From Deltaproteobacteria bacterium (GTDB taxonomy: Bacteria; Myxococcota_A; Polyangia; Polyangiales; JADJMO01), in NCBI GenBank assembly GCA_025363655.1, contig JANYDK010000038.1, positions 1 through 64,000 on the forward strand: a stretch of 64,000 nucleotides of DNA, in the 5' to 3' direction. The notes below the pieces were generated by a model, which did not search any database, had not been told where the DNA came from, and saw only the letters and a program-made list of their open reading frames with translations. Both the position numbers and the translations under genes were made by a program. The number at the start of each line of letters is the position of its first letter. Position 1 is the first letter of the stretch. Shown here in pieces: positions 1,415 to 26,615 of the stretch.

Positions 1415-2638
1415 ATGTTCCGCCGCTCGCTTCGCGCCGGCGTCGCCGCGACGGTCGCGCTCGCTCTCGCGCTCGGCCCGATGACGATCACCGGCGTGCC
1501 CGACGCCTCGGCCGCCAAGCAAGGAACCCCAGGCGCGCTCGAGATCGAAGTGCTCTCGTTCTCCTCGAACGACGCGGTCGAAGAGGCTCAGGCCTTCACG
1601 GACGCGTTCAAGCACGCGCTCATCGAGGCGCCTGGAATGTTCGAGCACGTCGCGGCCGGCAAAGGGCACGCGCTCGAGGCCGTGCTCCTCACCGTCAACT
1701 GCGAAGACGCCACGACGCCGGCCTGCGCGGCCAAGGTTGCCGCGGAAATCAAGCACGATCGCTTCCTTTTCGGCACCATCAAACGTTCGCCGCCGAACAA
1801 GCTGACGGCGACGCTCTCGTACTACAACAAGGGCGAGATCAAGACGGTCGCCAAGACCTACGACGCGGGCCCCGCCTCGAAGGACGGCACCGCGCCCGAG
1901 CTCAAGGTCATCGCGCTCGACGCGCTCTATGCAATGACCGGAGGTCCGCCGAAGTCGAAGGTCGACGTCGTCGTGACCGGTCCCGGCGCCAACGAAGCGG
2001 GCGACATCTACGAAGGCGCGAACAAGGTCGGTCACGTCGAGGGTGGCAAGACCACGCTCGAGCTCGCGGCCGGCAAACACACCCTCGAGCTGCGCGTCTC
2101 CGGCTACTCGACGAGCACCGCCGACGTCGACCTCGGCGCCGATCCGACGTCGGTGCAGTTCACGCCCGTCAAGCTCGCGCCCACGAAACCGCTCGATTGG
2201 CAGCTGTACGGCGGCATCGGCGCGATCGCGGTCGGCGCGGTCTTCGTCGGCGTCGGCGTCGCCACCTCGCTCAGCATCAAGGACGCGCAGGACGACCCGA
2301 CCTTCAACACCTATCGCCACCGCTTCCCCGCCAGCGTCGGCGACACCTGCGCCGAAGCAAAGGCAGGACACGAAGGCACCACCAGCGGCGGCGACAAACT
2401 CGCGCCCACCGTCTCCGATCTCTGCGACAGCGTCTCGCGCAAGCAGAAGATGCAGTTCGTCTGGTACGGCCTCGGCGCGGTCTTCATCGGCGGCGGCGCG
2501 GTCCTCATCGCCACCGACAAAAAGGGCGGCAGCGAGGGCGAAGCCCCGAAGACGGCGAGCGGCAGCAACTTCACCCTCAAGGTCCAGCCCACCGTCGGTC
2601 CCAACTTCAACGCGCTCTCGATCGTCGGCGCGTTCTAG
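1415..2638 (+). CDS. Exported PEGA-domain membrane protein
   Basis: A 407-aa protein. The N-terminus is a signal peptide (basic MFRR, hydrophobic Ala/Leu core, Ala-rich cleavage region near residue 34). An N-terminal domain of about 150 residues is unassigned. Around residues 190-245 lies a PEGA-type beta domain (VDVVVTGPGANEAG, GHVEGGKTTLELAAGKHTLE), a surface/periplasmic module common in Myxococcota. Two hydrophobic segments follow (about 268-290 and 350-370), separated by a loop with two cysteines (DTCAEAK and DLCDSV). ATG at 1415 was chosen over an upstream ATG because it starts directly at the signal peptide. rsmD follows 27 bp later on the same strand. Probably envelope-anchored; no enzymatic role is visible. 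Confidence 0.85.
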   Translation: MFRRSLRAGVAATVALALALGPMTITGVPDASAAKQGTPGALEIEVLSFSSNDAVEEAQAFTDAFKHALIEAPGMFEHVAAGKGHALEAVLLTVNCEDATTPACAAKVAAEIKHDRFLFGTIKRSPPNKLTATLSYYNKGEIKTVAKTYDAGPASKDGTAPELKVIALDALYAMTGGPPKSKVDVVVTGPGANEAGDIYEGANKVGHVEGGKTTLELAAGKHTLELRVSGYSTSTADVDLGADPTSVQFTPVKLAPTKPLDWQLYGGIGAIAVGAVFVGVGVATSLSIKDAQDDPTFNTYRHRFPASVGDTCAEAKAGHEGTTSGGDKLAPTVSDLCDSVSRKQKMQFVWYGLGAVFIGGGAVLIATDKKGGSEGEAPKTASGSNFTLKVQPTVGPNFNALSIVGAF

Positions 2639-2665
2639 GCGACTCGCCTCCTCCCCATCTCGATC

Positions 2666-3247
2666 GTGCGCGTCATCGCCGGTTCCCTCCGCAGTCGCGC
2701 GATCAAGGCGCCGAAGGGGAACGCCACGCGGCCGACGAGCGATCGCGTGCGTGAAGCTCTCTTCGCGGTCCTCGGTGACGTCGTCGACGCGCGCGTGCTC
2801 GACCTCTACGCAGGGAGCGGCGCGCTCGCGATCGAAGCACTTTCCCGCGGCGCTGCGAGCGCGGTCTGCGTCGACGACGATCGGCACGCGCTGGGCGTCC
2901 TCCGTGAGAACGCGAAGTCATTGGGCCTCGAGGGCCGGATGCACATCCTTCCACGACGCGTGCAGGACTGTGGCGCGCTCCTGGAAAAATCGGGTCCGTT
3001 CCATTTGGTGTTCGCCGACCCGCCCTATGCCCACGTGACGTCGGGGGCTTTGCTCGCGGCGCTCTCGCCGATCGTGCAACGCCCGACGCTCTTCACCGAG
3101 GACGCCCTCTTCGTCATCGAGCACGCGAGCCGCGACGAGCTACAGGCGATCGCCGGTCTCGACGTGGACGAGACGCGGCGTTGGGGAGATACGGCGGTGA
3201 CCATGCTCCGACGTTCACTGATTTCCCCCCCTCCCCCACCGTCCTAA
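2666..3247 (+). CDS. rsmD: 16S rRNA (guanine-N2-)-methyltransferase RsmD
   Basis: A 193-aa class I SAM-dependent methyltransferase of the RsmD family, which methylates G966 of 16S rRNA (E. coli numbering) during 30S assembly. The family hallmarks are present: N-terminal MRVIAGSLRSRAIKAP, TRPTSDRVREALF, SAM-binding LDLYAGSGALAIEALSRGA, and the catalytic FADPPY motif near residue 115. The length matches the family. The start is GTG at 2666. It is followed 9 bp later by recD2, so the two are probably co-transcribed. The last residues are a proline run (LISPPPPPS), a lineage-specific tail. Confidence 0.95.
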   Translation: MRVIAGSLRSRAIKAPKGNATRPTSDRVREALFAVLGDVVDARVLDLYAGSGALAIEALSRGAASAVCVDDDRHALGVLRENAKSLGLEGRMHILPRRVQDCGALLEKSGPFHLVFADPPYAHVTSGALLAALSPIVQRPTLFTEDALFVIEHASRDELQAIAGLDVDETRRWGDTAVTMLRRSLISPPPPPS

Positions 3248-17736: not shown

Positions 17737-18807
17737 CTACTCCGCCGCAGTCGGCAGCGCCTTCGCGCCGAGCATCGACGGACGAATCGCCATCGCCAGC
17801 GCGTGCGTCTGCGCGAAGAGGCGCGGGAGCGACGAGAGCGAGAGGGCCTGCAAGCCGTCCGAGCGGGCCACGCCGGCGTCCGGATGACACTCGACGATGA
17901 CGCCGTCGGCACCCGCCGCGATCGCCGCAGCTGCCATCGGAAGGACGGCCGCACGCACCCCTACCCCGTGCGAGGGATCGACGAGGACGGGGAGGTCGGT
18001 GCGCAATCGAAGGAGCGGCACCGCGGAGAGATCGAGGAGGTTGCGCGCTGCCGGATCGAAGCCGCGCACGCCACGCTCGCAAAGAACGAGATCGGTCGCG
18101 CCGGCGTGGAGCACGTGCTCGGCCGCCGAGAGCAACTCGTCGAGCGTGGCCGACGGTGAGCGCTTGAGGAGCACCGGCTTGCGGGTCTTGCCGACCTCGC
18201 GCAGGAGCGCCACGTCACCCATGTTTCGTGCACCGATTTGCAGGAGATCGGCGTACTCGGCGACGCGTTCGACGTCGCGTGGATCGAGCACCTCGGTGAC
18301 CACGCCGAGCCGATGTCGCTCAGCTACCTCACGGAGCAACGTCAGCGCGCTCGTTCCACCACCGGCGAAGGCATACGGGCTCGTCCGCGGCTTGTAGGCA
18401 CCGCCGCGGAGCAGTCGTCCGCCGGCCGCCGCCACGGCCTGCGCGCAGGCCTCGAGCTGCACTTCGGACTCGACGGCGCAGGGACCGGCGATGACCACCG
18501 GGTGCTCGCCGCCGATGACGACGCGGTCGCGCGCCGGTCCGCAGGGGACGATGACCTCACGGGTGCCACCTCCGCCGCGGAGCCCGGCGAGTGGATGCGA
18601 CGAGGGGGCAGCGAGGACGCGCGCGACGACGCGATGACGCGCGAGGAAGGCAGCGTCGTCGTCGTCGACGTTGGCGATGAAGCCGCGCCCCCCACCCTCC
18701 TCCGAGAGCAACTTCGCCTCGGCGCCGACGCGCACGAGCTCTTGCGCGAAGGCCGCGCGCGCCGCCTCGTCCGCGTGTTCGTGCAGCAAGAAGAGTCGGG
18801 TGCGCAT
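17737..18807 (-). CDS. aroF: 3-deoxy-7-phosphoheptulonate synthase
   Basis: A 356-aa DAHP synthase of the short AroF/AroA-beta type, which condenses phosphoenolpyruvate with erythrose-4-phosphate to start the shikimate pathway. It has an N-terminal ACT-like/ferredoxin-like segment of about 80 residues, then the barrel with [75 protein letters not shown] and VIVECHPDA. These match phosphoenolpyruvate- and metal-binding motifs. An AAAGGA site lies 8 nt before the ATG. It is 53 bp downstream of mqnP and probably the last gene of the menaquinone operon, which would raise chorismate supply for MqnA. Confidence 0.95.
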
Positions 18808-18860
18808 CTTCGTGTCCTTTCTTGACGCGGACGAGAAGTCCGTCGCCGTCTTCGCGCCGG

Positions 18861-19784
18861 TTAGTGCAGGGCCCAGACGTCGACGGCGACGAGCGCGAGG
18901 AACGCCAACGACACCCAGCCGTTGACGTCGAAGAAGGCCTTGTCGAGGCGCTCGAGCGGCACGGTCACCTTGCCGTCGGGAGCTCTGCGGGGACGAACCA
19001 GCGAGTGCTCGTAGACGAGGAGTGCGCCGACGAGGGCGCACGAAGCGCCGTACGCGAGACCAGCGCCGAAGAGCTTTCCCGCGACGGCCAAGGCGGTGAC
19101 GGTGATCACGTGAAGCGAGCGCGAGATGCGCAACGCCCCGAGCGAGCCGAAGCGCGATGGGATCGAACGGAGGCCGTTTTCCCGGTCGAATCGCTCGTCC
19201 TGCAGACTGTAGAGGACGTCGAAGCCGCCGACCCAGCAGGCGACCGCGACCATCAGGAGGACGATCGCCGGCTCGGGTGCGACGCCCATCGCCAGCCACG
19301 CGCCACCGGGAGCGAGCGCGAGCGCGAGGCCGAGCCAGAGGTGCGCCGCCCAGGTGAAGCGCTTGGCGTGGGAGTAGCCGAGGAGCACCGCGAGGACGAT
19401 CGGAGAAAGGAGCGCTGGCGTCCGACCGAGGATCACCGCCGCGCCGACGAAGGCGATCGCGGAGACGACGACGAGCGCGCGCGCTCCCCCGACCGAGACG
19501 ATTCCTGCCGGAATTTCCCTCGATTTCGTCCGCGGATTGGCGGCGTCGACGTCGCGATCGACGAGTCGGTTGTAGGCCATCGCCGCGGTCCTCGCCGCCA
19601 CCAAGGCGACGGCGATGGCGACGACGCGCACGACGGTCACCGGCGCGTGGGGCCGCAAGGTCGCCAGGATCGCCGCGGCGACTGCGAACGGCGCGGCGAA
19701 GATGGTGTGCGAAAGACGCACCAGCGAGGCGAACGCTGCCGCCTTGTCCGCCGCCCTGCCTGCTAGGCCGCTACCCGCGCCCAT
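18861..19784 (-). CDS. mqnP: UbiA-family prenyltransferase (MqnP-type)
   Basis: A 307-aa integral-membrane prenyltransferase with about eight predicted helices. Both Asp-rich motifs are present: [18 protein letters not shown] near 70-87 and [16 protein letters not shown] near 200-215. The pattern matches UbiA/MqnP, which attaches the polyprenyl tail to the naphthoate/aminofutalosine-derived ring of menaquinone. Its start ATG shares one base with the stop of the fused mqnA-mqnC gene (TGATG). The surrounding mqn genes favour MqnP over a ubiquinone role. Confidence 0.92.
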
Positions 19785-21715
19785 CACGCCGGCTCCGTCA
19801 GGTGATCGTAGCGGACGTTGCGACGAGCGACGCGGAAGCCGGCGGCGTGCACCTGCCGCTCGATCATCTCGGCGTTCATGCGGAAGGTGGTCCCCGCGCT
19901 GGAGACGACGTTCTCTTCGAACATCACGCTGCCCCAGTCGTCTGCGCCGAAGCGCAGTGCCAGTTGCCCGACGCCCGGTCCTTGCGTGACCCACGAGCTG
20001 CCGACGTGATCGACGTTGTCGAGGACCAGCCGCGCGAGGGCCTGCGTGCGCAAGTAGAGCTGCGTGCCGTGATCGCCGGCGTGGATGCGGGTGCCCTTCT
20101 CGTACTGAAAATCCCAGCAGAAAAAGGCGGTGAAGCCGCCGGTCTCGTCTTGCAGCTCGCGCAGCTTGAGGAGATGGAGGACACGCTCCTCGGCGGTGTC
20201 GACGGTGCCGTACATCATCGTCGCGCTCGAACGGAAGCCGAGGTGATGTGCGGTGCGCATGACGCCGAGCCACTCGTCGCTCGTGCACTTCGCCTTCGCG
20301 ATCACCCGACGCACGCGATCGACGAGGATCTCGGCGCCTCCGCCCGGCACGCTGTCGAGACCCGCGGCGCGCAGACGCGTCAGGACGGTCGCCACCGGCA
20401 ACTCCTCGAGCTGCGCGATGTGGAGGATCTCTTCCGGCGAGAGGCCGTGGAGACCGAGGCCGTACGTCGCCTTGATCCAACGGAAGAGGTCTTCGTACCA
20501 CTCGATGCGCAGCTCGGGGTTGAGCCCGCCTTGGAGGAGAATCTGCACGCCGCCCGCGTCGACGACCTCTTGCAGCTTCTCCCCCAGCACCTCGCGCGAG
20601 AGCACGTAGCCCTCTTCGTGGCCCACCGGGCGGTAGAAGGCACAGAAGCGACAGCTGGTGGTGCAGACGTTGGTGTAGTTGACGTTGCGATCGACGATGT
20701 ACGTCACGACGTCGCTCGATCCCGCGCGCGCCTTCTTCTTGCGTACGTGATCGGCGGCGATGCCGAGCGCGAAGAGATCTGCCTCGCGGTAGATGCGGAG
20801 GGCCTGCGCCGCCGAGAGACGTCCGCCGTCCATCACCCGTTCGAGCAAGTCGTCGACGCTCGGTGGCGCCGTGCCTTCTGGCCCCGACGCCCGAGGACCC
20901 GTCTCGATCCAGGAAGAAGCGAGGTCGGTTTCGGGAAGCAGGCCCGCCTTCGCGGCGTCGTCGAAGAAGCGAACGAGGCCTGATTTCTCGGCCGGACCGA
21001 TTGCATAGTGAATCGATGAATGTAGGTAGTCGCGGGTGCGCTGCGGGTCCTCGCCTCTCGCCTCGGCGTACCGATCGGCGAGGGTGTCGCGCGCGACCAG
21101 GCCGACGCGCGCCGCCTCTCGGAGGCGCTCGACGAGCTCGGGAGTGAACGCCTCGCGACGTCCTGCCCAAGCAGCGAAGACGAAGGGGAGTCCGGTGCGC
21201 TCACGGAAGGCGGCGCCGAGATCGAGGGCGAAGGGAAAGCGCTCGGCGAGATCGATCGCCGGATCGCCAATGACCAACGCGCCGGTCAGGCCCTTCACCG
21301 AGGCAATGGCTTCGCTCGGCGGCATCGCCTTGAAGCGCAGCGGCTTGCCCTGGCGACGCGCCGAGAGCTCGATGCGCGCGAGGATGGCGCTGGTGCGCGA
21401 CGAGGCGTCGAGCGCGAGCTCTTCGATCTCTTCGAGTGGCTTCTCGGCGACGACGACGACGCTCCGCACGGGCCCCCGCGCGACGATGCCGAGATCGAGG
21501 AAGGCCAGGTCACCGATGCTCGCGGCGCCGGCGACGGGAACGAGCGCGACGTCAGCTTCACCTTCCGCGAGCCGTCGCGTGACCTCGGCGGGTGAGCCGA
21601 GGAAGAGCTCGACGTCGGGATCGCGATCGAGGCCGAAGAGCAGCGGCGCCGCGTTGAGATATCCGACGCCGGCGATGCGAACGCGGGGCTTTTCCAAGCT
21701 CTTTTCCACGCTCAT
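19784..21715 (-). CDS. mqnAC: Fused chorismate dehydratase MqnA / cyclic dehypoxanthine futalosine synthase MqnC
   Basis: A single 643-aa open frame joining two futalosine-pathway enzymes. Residues about 5-275 form MqnA, a periplasmic-binding-protein-like fold (RIAGVGYLNAAPLLFGL, ADVALVPVAGAASIGDL, ALVIGDPAI, LPFVFAAWAGR). MqnA dehydrates chorismate to 3-enolpyruvylbenzoate. Residues about 290-643 form MqnC, a radical SAM cyclase with the cluster motif CTTSCRFCAF near 351-360, then GVQILLQGGLNPEL, AAGLDSVPGGGAEILVDRVR and FRSSATMMYGTVDTAEER. MqnC closes dehypoxanthine futalosine into the cyclic product. Usual lengths are about 280 and 360, so nothing is missing. The ATG overlaps the stop of mqnE by 4 nt. 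No frameshift or internal stop separates the domains. Confidence 0.93.
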   Translation of the reverse strand: MSVEKSLEKPRVRIAGVGYLNAAPLLFGLDRDPDVELFLGSPAEVTRRLAEGEADVALVPVAGAASIGDLAFLDLGIVARGPVRSVVVVAEKPLEEIEELALDASSRTSAILARIELSARRQGKPLRFKAMPPSEAIASVKGLTGALVIGDPAIDLAERFPFALDLGAAFRERTGLPFVFAAWAGRREAFTPELVERLREAARVGLVARDTLADRYAEARGEDPQRTRDYLHSSIHYAIGPAEKSGLVRFFDDAAKAGLLPETDLASSWIETGPRASGPEGTAPPSVDDLLERVMDGGRLSAAQALRIYREADLFALGIAADHVRKKKARAGSSDVVTYIVDRNVNYTNVCTTSCRFCAFYRPVGHEEGYVLSREVLGEKLQEVVDAGGVQILLQGGLNPELRIEWYEDLFRWIKATYGLGLHGLSPEEILHIAQLEELPVATVLTRLRAAGLDSVPGGGAEILVDRVRRVIAKAKCTSDEWLGVMRTAHHLGFRSSATMMYGTVDTAEERVLHLLKLRELQDETGGFTAFFCWDFQYEKGTRIHAGDHGTQLYLRTQALARLVLDNVDHVGSSWVTQGPGVGQLALRFGADDWGSVMFEENVVSSAGTTFRMNAEMIERQVHAAGFRVARRNVRYDHLTEPA

Positions 21716-22917
21716 TCGGCCTCGCCGAGGATCTGCAGGTGCTTGCCCTGCCTTCGATCGCGCACCTTGAACGCGCCCTCGAGCGCGGCGCGCGGGTGCT
21801 CTTTGAGGACGTTGTAGACGGTGTCGCGCTCGACGGGGATGCGCCCTGCCTCGCGGATGAGCCGCACCAGATCCTCTTCGAGCAAACCCTCGGGCGCCTT
21901 CTTGCTCGCGGCGGTGTAGATGGTCTCGGAGACGATGGTCCCGTCGACGTCGTCGGCGCCGAACGAGAGCCCGATTTGCGCCACCTTCGGCGTCGAGCTG
22001 ACCCAGTACGCCTTGATGTGATCGAAGTTGTCGAGCATCAGCCGCGAGACGGCGAGCGTTCGCAAGTCGTCGATGCCGGTGGTTCCAGGCAGCTGCCGCA
22101 TGCCGTTGCCGTCGGGGTGGAAGGCGAGCGGGATGAACGCGAGAAAACGAGCCTTTCCACCGGCGATCGACTGATCTTGCTGCGCGCGAAGGCGCAGCAG
22201 GTGATCGACGCGATGGGCGTAGGTCTCGACGTGCCCGTAGAGCATGGTCGCGTTGGTGAACATGCCGAGCGCGTGCGCCTCGCGGTGAACGGCGAGCCAC
22301 TCCTCGGCCGTCGCCTTGTCGTCGCAGATGCGCGTACGCACCTCCGGATGGAAGATCTCGGCGCCGCCGCCGGGGAGCGACTGCAACCCCGCCGCCTGCA
22401 ACCGCTCGAGCACCTGCCGCGGCGTCAGCTCGTAGCGCCGCGCGAAGTAGTGAATCTCGACCGCGGTGAAGCACTTGCGGCTCGCCGTCGGCATGTGCTC
22501 GGCGAGCGCGCGAAGGAGCTCTTCGTAGTACGTGAACGGCAGGTCCGGGTTGAGCCCGTTGACGACGTGCACCTCGGTCGGCGGCGCGGTGTTGGCTGTC
22601 TTCGCCTTCAACGTCTCGATCGCCTGCGCGACCGTCATCGTCACCGCGCCCGGCATCCCCGTCTCCAACTTGGCGAACGAGCAGAAGCGACAGTTGGCGA
22701 CGCAGACGTTGGTCGTCTCGAGGCGGACGTTGCGGTTGTAGTACGTGCGATCGCCGTGACGACGTTCGCGCACTTCGTTGGCGAGGGCGCCGAGGCCGAG
22801 AAAATCAGGCGTTTCGAAGAGGGCGAGCCCGTCTTCGGCGGTCAGACGCTGCCCCGCACGCACCTTCACGGCGACCTCGGCGAACGTCGGCATCTCGGTC
22901 TTCTCGGTGTTGGTCAC
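21712..22917 (-). CDS. mqnE: Aminodeoxyfutalosine synthase (radical SAM)
   Basis: A 401-aa MqnE, which adds the 5'-deoxyadenosyl radical to 3-[(1-carboxyvinyl)oxy]benzoate, giving aminodeoxyfutalosine. The cluster motif CVANCRFCSFAK lies near residues 70-81. Other family marks are TPDFLGLGALANEVR, EVHVVNGLNPDLPFTYYEELLRALAE, AAGLQSLPGGGAEIFHPEVR, TNATMLYGHVETYAHRVDHL, PLAFHPDGNGM and VAQIGLSFGADDVDGTI. GTG at 22917 was chosen because GGAGGAG lies 5 nt upstream. The GTGA overlaps the stop of the small upstream gene. It feeds the MqnC half of the next gene. Confidence 0.95.
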   Translation of the reverse strand: MTNTEKTEMPTFAEVAVKVRAGQRLTAEDGLALFETPDFLGLGALANEVRERRHGDRTYYNRNVRLETTNVCVANCRFCSFAKLETGMPGAVTMTVAQAIETLKAKTANTAPPTEVHVVNGLNPDLPFTYYEELLRALAEHMPTASRKCFTAVEIHYFARRYELTPRQVLERLQAAGLQSLPGGGAEIFHPEVRTRICDDKATAEEWLAVHREAHALGMFTNATMLYGHVETYAHRVDHLLRLRAQQDQSIAGGKARFLAFIPLAFHPDGNGMRQLPGTTGIDDLRTLAVSRLMLDNFDHIKAYWVSSTPKVAQIGLSFGADDVDGTIVSETIYTAASKKAPEGLLEEDLVRLIREAGRIPVERDTVYNVLKEHPRAALEGAFKVRDRRQGKHLQILGEAE

Positions 22918-23591
22918 GACTCTCCTCCGTCTCGCAGCGCCCTGGTCTCGCGACCGGGAGCTCGGAATTTGCGCTTGGCGGTGCTCGTCTCGTCGACGCC
23001 GCGTTCGTGGGACTCGTCGCCGTGCCACTCGACGAAGCGCGGCGGACGACCGATGGCCGAGAGCAGCGCCGCGAGCTCGCGTTCACGAACGACCGCGGCG
23101 GCGAGCTCGTCTCCCTCGGCGCCGAGGACGGCGAGGCCGCGACCTCTTCGAGAGTGCATGTAAACGAGCTCATCGGCGCCGTAGGCGAGCGCCACCTGCG
23201 CGAGTTGGAGCCCGACGTCGTCGACGTCGACGCGCAGTGCGGCGCCCGCAGCACCCTCGATGCGCGCCCTCGCCACCGACCGGAGGAAGGCCTGCCCTCC
23301 GGCCACTGGATCGAAGCGCGGCAGCGTCATGGCGTCGCTCCTTCCCGGCGGGTCGACGTGGATGCGCACGGCGTCACCTCGTTTGGCCTCGGCCACGCGG
23401 ACTCGATCGGCGAGCGCGCCGAGGACGAGGATGTCGAGCGAGCCCAGCTTCGCGGCGATCGACGCACGAATTGCCGGTGTTTCGTCGCCCGCGAGGCGAG
23501 CCGCGAGGAAGCCGTCGACGCCAGCCTCGGCGAACGCACGCGTGAGCACGCGCGAAGATGTGAGCGTCTTCGTCGTCGTCGTCGTCGTCAT
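22914..23591 (-). CDS. Unknown futalosine-operon protein, possible core-deleted MqnE/MqnC relative
   Basis: A 225-aa protein of unknown function, locked in the operon by 4-nt overlaps at both ends (with the ubiX homologue upstream and mqnE downstream). No cluster cysteines, signal peptide or known catalytic motif are present. Two parts look like pieces of MqnE. LDILVLGALADRVRVAE...GDAVRIHVD (about 52-77) parallels the MqnE stretch TPDFLGLGALANEVR. The C-terminal half has LQLAQVALAYGADELV, paralleling MqnE's VAQIGLSFGADDV, then a helix and GRPPRFVEW that parallels MqnE's AGRIPVERD. The roughly 200-residue core between them, including the CxxxCxxC region, is missing. It may be a pseudo-enzyme, scaffold or partner of MqnE/MqnC. 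An unrelated small fold remains possible. The start is a poly-Thr ATG at 23591. Confidence 0.75.
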   Translation of the reverse strand: MTTTTTTKTLTSSRVLTRAFAEAGVDGFLAARLAGDETPAIRASIAAKLGSLDILVLGALADRVRVAEAKRGDAVRIHVDPPGRSDAMTLPRFDPVAGGQAFLRSVARARIEGAAGAALRVDVDDVGLQLAQVALAYGADELVYMHSRRGRGLAVLGAEGDELAAAVVRERELAALLSAIGRPPRFVEWHGDESHERGVDETSTAKRKFRAPGRETRALRDGGES

Positions 23592-24232
23592 CGAGAGCTC
23601 TCCTGGTGGATGTCGTCGCCCCAACGCTTGGCGCCCTCGGGCTCGACGCCGAGCTGATCGAGGATCCGCGTGACGACCGTGTCGACGATCGCCTCCTTGG
23701 TCTCGGGTCGCGCGTAGAACGAGGGCGTCGCCGGCAACACCACCGCCCCTGCGCGGGTCACGGTGAGCATGTTTTCGAGGTGAATCATCGACAGCGGCGT
23801 CTCGCGCGCGACGAGCACCAGGCGACGTCGCTCTTTCAACATCACGTCGGCGGCGCGGCTCAGCAGGTCGTCGGAGATGCCGTGCGCGATCTTGGCGATC
23901 GCCGACATCGAGCAAGGAACGACGACCATCGCTTCCCACCGCGCGCTCCCCGAAGCGAAGGGCGCGCTGTAGTCGCGACCGTCGAAGACGGGGACGTCGA
24001 GCCCGCGAAGGTGCTCTCGGACATCCCCGCCGAGCTCGTGCGACCAGACCTCACCCGCGCTCTGCGAGAGCACCGCCGCGAGCTGGACCTCTCCGCTCGA
24101 CCGAGCCGCGACGAGCGCCGCGATCACCGCCTGCGCGTAGATGGAGCCGGAGGCGCCTGTGATCGCGAGGACGATTTTGCGCGGCCTTTTCCGGCTGTTC
24201 GCGAGATCGCCGGTGCGCGTCGCCTGCGTCAC
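23588..24232 (-). CDS. ubiX: UbiX-family flavin prenyltransferase
   Basis: A 214-aa UbiX/Pad1-type flavin prenyltransferase. It makes prenylated FMN, the cofactor of UbiD-type decarboxylases. Family motifs are VLAITGASGSIYAQAV (Rossmann-like FMN site), AMVVVPCSMSAIAKIAHGISDDLLSRAADVMLKERR, LVARETPLSMIHLENM and GAVVLPATPSFYARP. The GTG start at 24232 overlaps the stop of menG (GTGA). It is the natural partner of the ubiD homologue three positions upstream in transcription. In this context it could also be called mqnM. Confidence 0.92.
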   Translation of the reverse strand: MTQATRTGDLANSRKRPRKIVLAITGASGSIYAQAVIAALVAARSSGEVQLAAVLSQSAGEVWSHELGGDVREHLRGLDVPVFDGRDYSAPFASGSARWEAMVVVPCSMSAIAKIAHGISDDLLSRAADVMLKERRRLVLVARETPLSMIHLENMLTVTRAGAVVLPATPSFYARPETKEAIVDTVVTRILDQLGVEPEGAKRWGDDIHQESSR

Positions 24233-25029
24233 GTGGAGGCTCGCTTGGCCGGCTTCGTGCCGCTCACGATGGAAGCGACTCCGAGCGTGAGATCTTCGCC
24301 GACGACCTCGACGAGACCGAGCCGCTGAAGATGCGCCTCGACCTCGGCGCGCGGGAGAAAAGCCGCCATCGACTTCGCGAGGTAGGCGTAGGCGTCGCGA
24401 TCTCCGGCGATGACGCCACCGACCGTGGGAAGAACCGCACGCGCATAGACGGCGTGGAACGCACGGGTCACGGCCCCACCGGCGCCATGTCGCGGCTGGA
24501 AGAACTCGAGGATCACGAGCCGCCCGCCCGGCGCGAGGACCCGCACGGCCTCGGCGAGACCGAGCACCGGATCGGCGAGGTTGCGAAGTCCGAAGCCGCA
24601 GATGACGGCGGCGAATCGCTCGCTCTCGAACGGCAGCGACATCGCGTCACCGACCACCGTCTCGGTGCGCGAGACCTTGCCCTTGCCGCGCTCGAGCATG
24701 TCGGCAGCGAAATCGAGCGCGACGATCTTGCGATCGAAAAATGCCCTCTCGACCTCCGCCGACAAATCGAGCGTGCCGGCGCACGAGTCGAGGATTTCGC
24801 CGGCGGGAAGGCCCGAGGGAACACGGGCGGGAGGAGGTGAGAGGAGCGAGACCGCGCGCTTGCGCCAACGGACGTCGAGCCCCGCCGAGAGCAGACGATT
24901 CACCCGATCGTAGGTTGGCGAGATGCGATCGAACATCGAGCGGACCGCGCCGCCGTGCGCGTCTTCGTGACCGATCCGCGCGTCGAGCGTGGCGATCGGC
25001 TCCTTCGGGCTCTCTTGCTCGGACGTCAT
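24229..25029 (-). CDS. menG: Demethylmenaquinone methyltransferase (UbiE/MenG)
   Basis: A 266-aa SAM-dependent C-methyltransferase. It performs the last step, demethylmenaquinone to menaquinone. UbiE/MenG motifs are MFDRISPTYDRVNRLLSAGLD near 31-51, a SAM loop EILDSCAGTLDLSAEV, VALDFAADMLERG, GDAMSLPFESERFAAVICGFGLRNLADP and GGRLVILEFFQPRH. The first glycine motif is the less common CAGTLDLS version rather than GTGD. The ATG overlaps the stop of the UbiD gene by 4 nt. Confidence 0.93.
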   Translation of the reverse strand: MTSEQESPKEPIATLDARIGHEDAHGGAVRSMFDRISPTYDRVNRLLSAGLDVRWRKRAVSLLSPPPARVPSGLPAGEILDSCAGTLDLSAEVERAFFDRKIVALDFAADMLERGKGKVSRTETVVGDAMSLPFESERFAAVICGFGLRNLADPVLGLAEAVRVLAPGGRLVILEFFQPRHGAGGAVTRAFHAVYARAVLPTVGGVIAGDRDAYAYLAKSMAAFLPRAEVEAHLQRLGLVEVVGEDLTLGVASIVSGTKPAKRAST

Positions 25030-26615
25030 CGCGTCATCTCCTTGGCCGCATCCATCCAGCGGCGCAGCGTGCTCTTCGTGCCCTCGTCCGACTCGCGAGC
25101 GCTGCTGCTCGCGTGCGCGCTGTCGCCTTCTGGAAGATCGATTCCGAGCTCGGCCCAGCGCCGCTCGACTGCGGCAGTGGTCGCTGCATCGGCCACGCAC
25201 GGCGACGGCCAGACCCGCGTGTAGCCTTCCTCCGGCCACTTGCGCGTGCCGTCGATGACGATCTTTCCGCCGAAATGCTGCACGTCGCCCGAGTGACAGA
25301 GATGGTCGCTCGGCCCCTCGGTGACCGAGAGATCGCGCTTCGGATCGACGTTGGCGAGGATCTTCCAAGCGACCTCTCGAACGTCCTGCACGTCGACGTC
25401 GTGATCGACGACGACGATCGCTTTGGTGAACATCATCTGGCCCGCACCCCAGATGGAGTGGGCGATCTTCCGACCGTGGAAGGGAAACCCCTTCTTGATG
25501 GAGACGATGCAGAGGTTGTGGAACGCCCCCTCGACCGGGAGGTTCATGTCGACCACCTCTGGCAACTGCAGCTGAAGCAGCGGAAGAAAGAGCCGCTCGG
25601 TGGCCTTCCCGAGCCACTGATCTTCCATCGGGGGCGGCCCGACGATCGTCGTCGGATAGATCGCGTCCCTCCGATGCGTGAGCGCCGTGACGTGAAATCG
25701 AGGGAATTTCTCGATCGGCGTGTAGTAACCGGTGTGATCGCCGAAGGGCCCTTCGTCCACCAGCTCCTCGCTCGGATCGACGTACCCCTCGAGAACGAAG
25801 TCGGCGTCGGCGGGCACCTCGAGATCGTTGGTCAGGCACTTCACCAACCGCACCGCCTTTTTGCGGAGGAAGCCGGCGAGGAGCAGCTCGTCGAGACCAT
25901 CGGGGAGCGGCGCCGTCGCGGCGTAGGCGAGCGCCGGATCGCCGCCGAGGACGACGCTGACGGGCAAGCGTTCTCCGCGCTTCTTCGCGCTCTCGTAGTG
26001 ACGTCGACCGGTCTTGTGCACCTGCCAGTGCATCGCCGTCGTCCGTCGATCGAGCTTCTGCATGCGGTACATGCCGAGGTTGCGATCGCCTCGCTCGGGA
26101 TCGCGCGTGATGACGACCGGAAGCGTGAGGAAGGGCCCGCCGTCGGACGGCCAAGCGGTGATGATCGGCAAGCGATCGAGGTCGACCTCGTCGCCGCGCT
26201 GCACGACCTCCTGACACGCCCCTGCCCCGTCGCGCCGCGGCGGCACGTGCATCAAGTCGGGCAAGTGCGCCGCCAGCTGGCCGAGCATCTGCGTCATGCC
26301 ACGCGAGCCCCCGTGGGCACCGGTGGCCGCGACGATCGAACGGATGCGCTCTGCCTGCTCCTCGAAGTCCTCCGCCGAGAGCGCCAGCGACATCCGACGA
26401 CGCGACGCGTAGGCGTTGATCAAGAGCGGGAACGGAGAACGCACCCCGCGGACGTCGACGACGTTCTCGAAGAGCAGCGCCTTGCCCTTGGATTTGACGG
26501 CCCGATCGGCGATGGCCGCGAGCTCGAGGTGCGAGCCGACGGCTGCGCGTACCCGGACGAGCTCACCCCGTCGCTCGAGCTCCCGCACGAATTCGCTGAG
26601 CCCGTCGTAGGCCAC
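25026..26615 (-). CDS. ubiD: UbiD-family decarboxylase (futalosine-pathway MqnL-type)
   Basis: A 529-aa prenylated-FMN-dependent decarboxylase of the UbiD family. Markers include GKALLFENVVD, PIITAWPSDGGPFLTLPVVITRDPE, NLGMYRMQKLD, MHWQVHKTGRRHY, DEGPFGDHTGYYTP, IWGAGQMMFTKAIVVVD and EGPSDHLCHSG. In futalosine gene clusters the UbiD homologue (MqnL) removes the ring carboxylate. The GTG start at 26615 has a GGGAGG site 5 nt upstream. A perfect dyad lies 17-38 bp before it. This is the first gene of the operon running to mqnP and possibly aroF. Confidence 0.92.
   Translation of the reverse strand: MAYDGLSEFVRELERRGELVRVRAAVGSHLELAAIADRAVKSKGKALLFENVVDVRGVRSPFPLLINAYASRRRMSLALSAEDFEEQAERIRSIVAATGAHGGSRGMTQMLGQLAAHLPDLMHVPPRRDGAGACQEVVQRGDEVDLDRLPIITAWPSDGGPFLTLPVVITRDPERGDRNLGMYRMQKLDRRTTAMHWQVHKTGRRHYESAKKRGERLPVSVVLGGDPALAYAATAPLPDGLDELLLAGFLRKKAVRLVKCLTNDLEVPADADFVLEGYVDPSEELVDEGPFGDHTGYYTPIEKFPRFHVTALTHRRDAIYPTTIVGPPPMEDQWLGKATERLFLPLLQLQLPEVVDMNLPVEGAFHNLCIVSIKKGFPFHGRKIAHSIWGAGQMMFTKAIVVVDHDVDVQDVREVAWKILANVDPKRDLSVTEGPSDHLCHSGDVQHFGGKIVIDGTRKWPEEGYTRVWPSPCVADAATTAAVERRWAELGIDLPEGDSAHASSSARESDEGTKSTLRRWMDAAKEMTR

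Follow-up and report, generated by a model that had tools for sequence, protein, structure and literature searches.

The window analysed here, a stretch of 64,000 nucleotides of deltaproteobacterial DNA, carries an operon for the futalosine route to menaquinone in which a short gene, termed X below, separates ubiX from mqnE. A sequence-only reading had paired motifs by eye and proposed that the encoded protein is MqnE with its radical SAM core removed, and that, with no mqnB or mqnD visible nearby, it might have an unknown activity. The locus therefore raises the question of where X comes from, what chemistry it could still perform, and what role would keep it in the operon.

Gene X within the menaquinone operon

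Read 5' to 3' on the minus strand, the operon encodes a UbiD-like protein, a MenG/UbiE-type methyltransferase, a UbiX-like protein, X, MqnE, an MqnA–MqnC fusion and a UbiA-like protein (Table 1). The X frame opens with the ATG at 23591 and closes with a TGA that ends at 22914. The 225-aa frame and its 4-nt overlaps with both neighbours were found as first described, with the strand corrected to minus: ATGA is shared at the ubiX/X junction (...CGATGACG) and GTGA at the X/mqnE junction (...CGTGACC), and AGGAG-type ribosome sites precede the starts of both X and mqnE. Downstream, the operon continues by eye at 17737-19790 (minus strand) with genes for a UbiA-type prenyltransferase and a DAHP-synthase-like protein (chorismate supply).

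Table 1. Features of the X locus (positions in the window) and the basis of each assignment
Feature	Position	Strand	Basis
Gene X, core-excised MqnE paralogue, 225 aa, lacking CxxxCxxC	22914..23591	-	Alignments, profiles, model; dN/dS<1 in homologues
X N-terminal module, residues ~10-80 (N-terminal helices, LGALAD-VR helix, first barrel strand)	23352..23564	-	Matches MqnE N-termini of X-lacking Myxococcota; AF2 model
X excision point, residues ~79-95 (linker replacing ~205 MqnE residues: CxxxCxxC cluster and most of the barrel)	23307..23357	-	Alignments
X C-terminal module, residues ~94-190 (CofH_C-like last two barrel strands, LAQ-AL-FGAD and AGR motifs)	23022..23312	-	hhalign; TIGR03700 in 15/16 homologues
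mqnE, full-length aminofutalosine synthase, CxxxCxxC intact	21712..22917	-	TIGR03700 458 bits, over cut-off; GTGA shared with the X stop
ubiX-like flavin prenyltransferase gene, directly upstream of X, ATGA overlap	23588..24232	-	Sequence and operon position; neighbour kept in X loci with enough contig
mqnA-mqnC fusion, 643 aa, MqnA then MqnC, CTTSCRFC intact	19784..21715	-	One open frame; PF02621; TIGR03699 over cut-off
menG/ubiE-type methyltransferase of the operon	24229..25029	-	Sequence; conserved neighbour
ubiD-like decarboxylase of the operon	25026..26615	-	Sequence; conserved neighbour

The idea that X fills a gap left by MqnB and MqnD did not survive inspection of the rest of the genome. 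MqnD is encoded on another contig (G000:C7, C7:25942-26751), and MqnB-like proteins of the PNP family, sub-threshold for TIGR03664, are found on C57, C58 and C67; X therefore need not supply a missing step, and a hidden missing MqnB/MqnD step was rejected on these grounds. The same genome holds a further CofH/MqnC-like radical SAM gene (G000:C38:167669-168712), which is probably F420-related.

Descent of X from the MqnE/MqnC family

Taken alone, the X sequence of the window matched no Pfam or NCBIfam model, including TIGR03700, the MqnE model, whose curated cut-off of 434.55 bits it did not reach; phmmer against the PDB returned chance matches only, and pairwise BLASTP against MqnE gave a non-significant E=0.05 over 14 aa, with nothing decisive against MqnC either. 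With no family match and so weak a match to MqnE, the claim made by eye needed relatives for testing. A profile of 16 X sequences, the window's included, was compared by hhalign with an alignment of 24 MqnE sequences and scored 97.6% (E=3.8e-12) in a match that covers 90 columns at the C-terminus, bearing out the proposed MqnE ancestry at the profile-profile level; the score against MqnC was 96.1% (E=3.7e-9). TIGR03700 matched 15 of the 16 profile members (best E=1e-10), the window's own being the unmatched one, and in the PDB the profile found MqnE 6xi9 (E=1.1e-5), where an N-terminal and a C-terminal segment aligned in the correct sequence. All three lines of evidence place in X a C-terminal CofH_C-type half-domain homologous to that of MqnE.

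When the phylum was searched with the X profile, the matches comprised true X genes and also MqnE C-termini, the latter reaching ~1e-15 in single genomes; several genomes showed a match to each end of one MqnE frame, correctly ordered and flanking the core. Positions 2-72 of the profile matched the MqnE N-termini of three loci (L059, L060 and L061) with i-E values of 1e-10 to 1e-11. A related-locus search with a four-sequence X subset returned Myxococcota only.

In the alignments, the earlier motif pairings agreed residue for residue: X L57-G-A-L-A-D..R65 pairs with MqnE L42-G-A-L-A-N..R50, X L130-A-Q..A-L-A-Y-G-A-D with MqnE V312-A-Q..L-S-F-G-A-D, and X G181-R with MqnE G358-R. Between these ends, MqnE residues of roughly 63-270 are replaced in X by a linker of ~15-20 residues; the loss of about 200 residues that had been estimated, cluster motif and barrel included, comes to ~205. 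X resembles MqnE (TIGR03700; PDB 6xi9/6xig) in its N-terminal LGALA-VR segment with the first strand and in its C-terminal CofH_C half-domain with the AQ-AL-FGAD and AGR motifs, and its gene lies next to mqnE; it differs from MqnE in lacking CxxxCxxC and the barrel residues, in the linker, and in an (R/K)xLP loop. Neither the window's X nor any other X sequence inspected contains the CxxxCxxC motif, and the Pfam search gave no match of X to PF04055 (radical SAM). Unable to bind the radical-SAM cluster, X is not an aminofutalosine synthase, and it is virtually certain to be without radical-SAM activity.

Structure prediction also led back to MqnE, which was the top Foldseek match for models of two X subfamilies. 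For the AlphaFold model of the window's X (pLDDT 84, pTM 0.79), the three best PDB matches were all to MqnE (6xig/6xi9), with probabilities of 0.90-0.99, E ~0.04 and TM-scores of ~0.27, which are low as expected for a partial fold. For the more complete X of another family, f16 (pLDDT 88.8, pTM 0.86), MqnE again came first (E=1.9e-5, probability 1.00), and the later matches included the radical-SAM barrels PylB, BioB (biotin synthase), HydE and ThiH.

Combined, these results make it almost certain that X originates from the MqnE/MqnC family, closest to MqnE. MqnC (dehypoxanthine futalosine cyclase, TIGR03699) and CofH belong to the same CofH_C superfamily as X but possess the catalytic cluster. 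A derivation from MqnC is less likely, X being nearer to MqnE by profile, although the C-terminal tree does not decide, placing X with neither MqnE nor MqnC in preference to the other. The X sequences of the sampled families group in a single clade (SH-aLRT 99). That X is a fragment of a frameshifted mqnE was rejected because a full mqnE adjoins it and X is intact in dozens of genomes, and a horizontal or plasmid origin found no plasmid match.

Distribution, stepwise erosion and selection

Among the 379 Myxococcota genomes searched, 70 carry MqnE over the curated cut-off, and 25 of these belong to the window's class. The expectation that X homologues adjoin mqnE elsewhere was borne out in 24 of the 25 class genomes with full MqnE, where X lies between ubiX and mqnE. 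The UbiX-X-MqnE order is kept in the close relatives found and in 11/11 other-family genomes of the class, and indeed wherever the contig extends far enough around X, and most of the junctions show start/stop overlaps; the named relatives are Polyangiaceae, Labilithrix and unclassified Myxococcales. The class exception (genome G012, locus L086) has MqnE and no X, and its ubiX and mqnE are directly joined. Outside the window's class, the loci inspected showed no X at the ubiX/mqnE junction. As G012 and those other genomes run the pathway without X, it would be accessory rather than essential. The MqnE of G012 keeps the C-terminal tail typical of the class, which makes this genome a natural X-minus comparison.

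Some observations hint that X and MqnE are linked. An N-terminal helix (RA...AGL) is kept in X and in the MqnE of X-lacking families and is absent from the MqnE of X-bearing genomes, so that X differs in this respect from the MqnE encoded beside it, and MqnE of the X-bearing class has a C-terminal tail of ~25 aa. Both the lost helix and the added tail also occur in the X-less G012, and they may therefore be lineage traits. The divergence of X tracks that of MqnE (partial r 0.41) more than that of UbiX (0.08) or MenG (0.22), which is weak evidence, as these values have no null distribution.

In two other families, the X proteins retain a larger part of the barrel. For the X of family f20 (about 245–251 aa), the alignment with MqnE covers 139 columns, beginning past the GGGAEIF segment and running to the end (98.3%, E=1.5e-14); for the X of f16 and that of the window's order it covers about 90 columns at the C-terminus, and f16 X has extra predicted strands before this region. 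Judged from these alignments, the proteins form an erosion series, with the X of other families as intermediates, so that the loss is traceable step by step.

X is under purifying selection. Over 15 pairs, its dN/dS ranged from 0.07 to 0.82, with most pairs within 0.07-0.6 and the bulk of the values at 0.15–0.5, a single pair at 0.82, and the two closest pairs at 0.07 and 0.15; in all 15 pairs the value was above that of MqnE, and X evolves 2-3 times faster than MqnE. With the frame open across families, the observation that X keeps its frame and coupling, unlike a decayed gene, was upheld. The homologues also conserve residues of their own. The invariant positions (A61, G72, V75, L103, R110, Q132, A134, L135, G138, A139, L153, E172, G181 and R182) are mostly those common to the MqnE fold, and where MqnE has its IYHMAGA loop, the homologues share an X-specific (R/K)xLP segment.

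Role of X and parallel core loss in MqnC

The reading that we favour, with a probability of about 0.58, is that X is a radical-SAM pseudoenzyme which has had its core excised and which persists, without catalysis of its own, as a partner that docks on MqnE or stabilises it. It would have arisen by a tandem duplication of mqnE in an ancestor of the myxobacterial class, after which the duplicate would have lost its [4Fe-4S]/SAM loop and then, stepwise, its barrel core. The parts left over are the helical cap and first strand at the N-terminus and the last strands and helices at the C-terminus, which are neighbours in the MqnE fold. Co-translated X may dock on MqnE, or on an MqnE/MqnA-MqnC group, through surfaces inherited from MqnE, and once docked it could stabilise or position MqnE or help to hand on labile intermediates. 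For the partner role taken by itself, the odds are about even.

The rapid evolution of X lends some weight to a different account, in which X is a decaying relic of the mqnE duplication, in frame mainly for translation coupling between ubiX and mqnE, with a protein that does little. Its dN/dS is higher than that of MqnE and reaches 0.82 in one pair, its N-terminal half is poorly conserved, its core was eroded stepwise, and in G012 it was lost altogether. However, the open frame, core residues and own motifs are kept across families f1, f3, f7, f9, f10, f12, f16 and f20, dN/dS falls to 0.07 and 0.15 in the closest pairs, the AF2 folds are confident (pLDDT 84 and 89), and erosion has always spared the same modules, so that a relic appears unlikely. 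Slightly less likely again is a new catalytic or ligand-binding role, such as keeping hold of the unstable enolpyruvyl or futalosine intermediate on its way among MqnA, MqnE and MqnC, or assisting in a hydrolase step. The conserved (R/K)xLP segment and the operon position would suit such a role, but the invariant residues are almost all structural and common to MqnE, the pathway has no gap given the MqnD and MqnB-like proteins elsewhere in the genome, and other Myxococcota as well as G012 manage without X.

X overlaps ubiX as tightly as it does mqnE, and its effect could accordingly run via UbiX or via UbiX/UbiD decarboxylation (prenyl-FMN maturation) instead of MqnE. We consider this improbable, as the ancestry of X lies in the MqnE/MqnC family and not in a UbiX partner, and its covariation with UbiX is nil after accounting for MqnE (partial r 0.08). 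The pairwise BLASTP value of E=0.05, the failure of the window's X to match any library family and the low TM-scores of its model could suggest an unrelated small protein with a chance or generic TIM-barrel resemblance; the hhalign E of 3.8e-12, the NCBIfam matches in 15/16 members, the two ordered segments on 6xi9 and the Foldseek probability of 1.00 for f16 X already refute this, leaving it a negligible chance.

Pseudoenzyme paralogues in general are well known, and catalytically dead paralogues serve as partners of enzymes in QTRT2 of tRNA-guanine transglycosylase and in PDX1.2. Dph1-Dph2 is a radical SAM heterodimer in which each subunit carries Fe-S clusters (PMC11048331). These systems resemble X as interpreted here in being paralogous partners of a TIM-barrel or radical enzyme, but they are full-length subunits, whereas X is without the whole catalytic core. 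In the open-access literature searched, neither X nor a core-less MqnE/MqnC is described, and absence there is no proof of novelty. What appears to be new is a pseudoenzyme derived from a canonical radical-SAM barrel minus the cluster loop and most of the barrel, with both ends under selection. If the leftover is a docking module, it offers a direct test of whether the futalosine-pathway enzymes, which handle labile intermediates, form a complex. Additionally, automatic annotation may label such core-less proteins MqnE or MqnC despite their having no capacity for the chemistry.

A similar loss, first of the cysteines and then of the core, was seen in the MqnC domain fused to MqnA in families f33, f35, f42 and part of f41, where all stages occur. 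The cysteine motif is intact in L064 and L088; the domain is full length without the motif in L063, L098 and L099; and it has shrunk to ~180–250 residues, keeping the same two ends as X, in L058, L061, L089, L095 and L096. Altogether, cysteine-less or core-eroded fused domains occur in L058-L063 and L089-L101, and in the genomes with an eroded fusion that were checked, a separate MqnC-like gene lies elsewhere. The eroded domains cluster with MqnC and not with X (SH-aLRT 99), which points to a separate origin and to a core loss independent of that of X. That two radical-SAM proteins of one pathway have become core-less independently, with the same ends remaining, favours a structural or docking role over simple decay. 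Tentatively, a single kind of core-less module made of the two ends may have emerged two or more times from the futalosine radical-SAM enzymes of Myxococcota, once as X out of MqnE and once as the MqnA-fused domain out of MqnC; this module would serve as a subunit for assembly or docking and would build a menaquinone metabolon together with the active enzymes.

In family f41, the full-length MqnC domains without CxxxCxxC (L063 at 2108-3124, minus strand, L098 and L099) occur in a kind of genome that has a different MqnC-like gene elsewhere, and the native enzyme has apparently been displaced.
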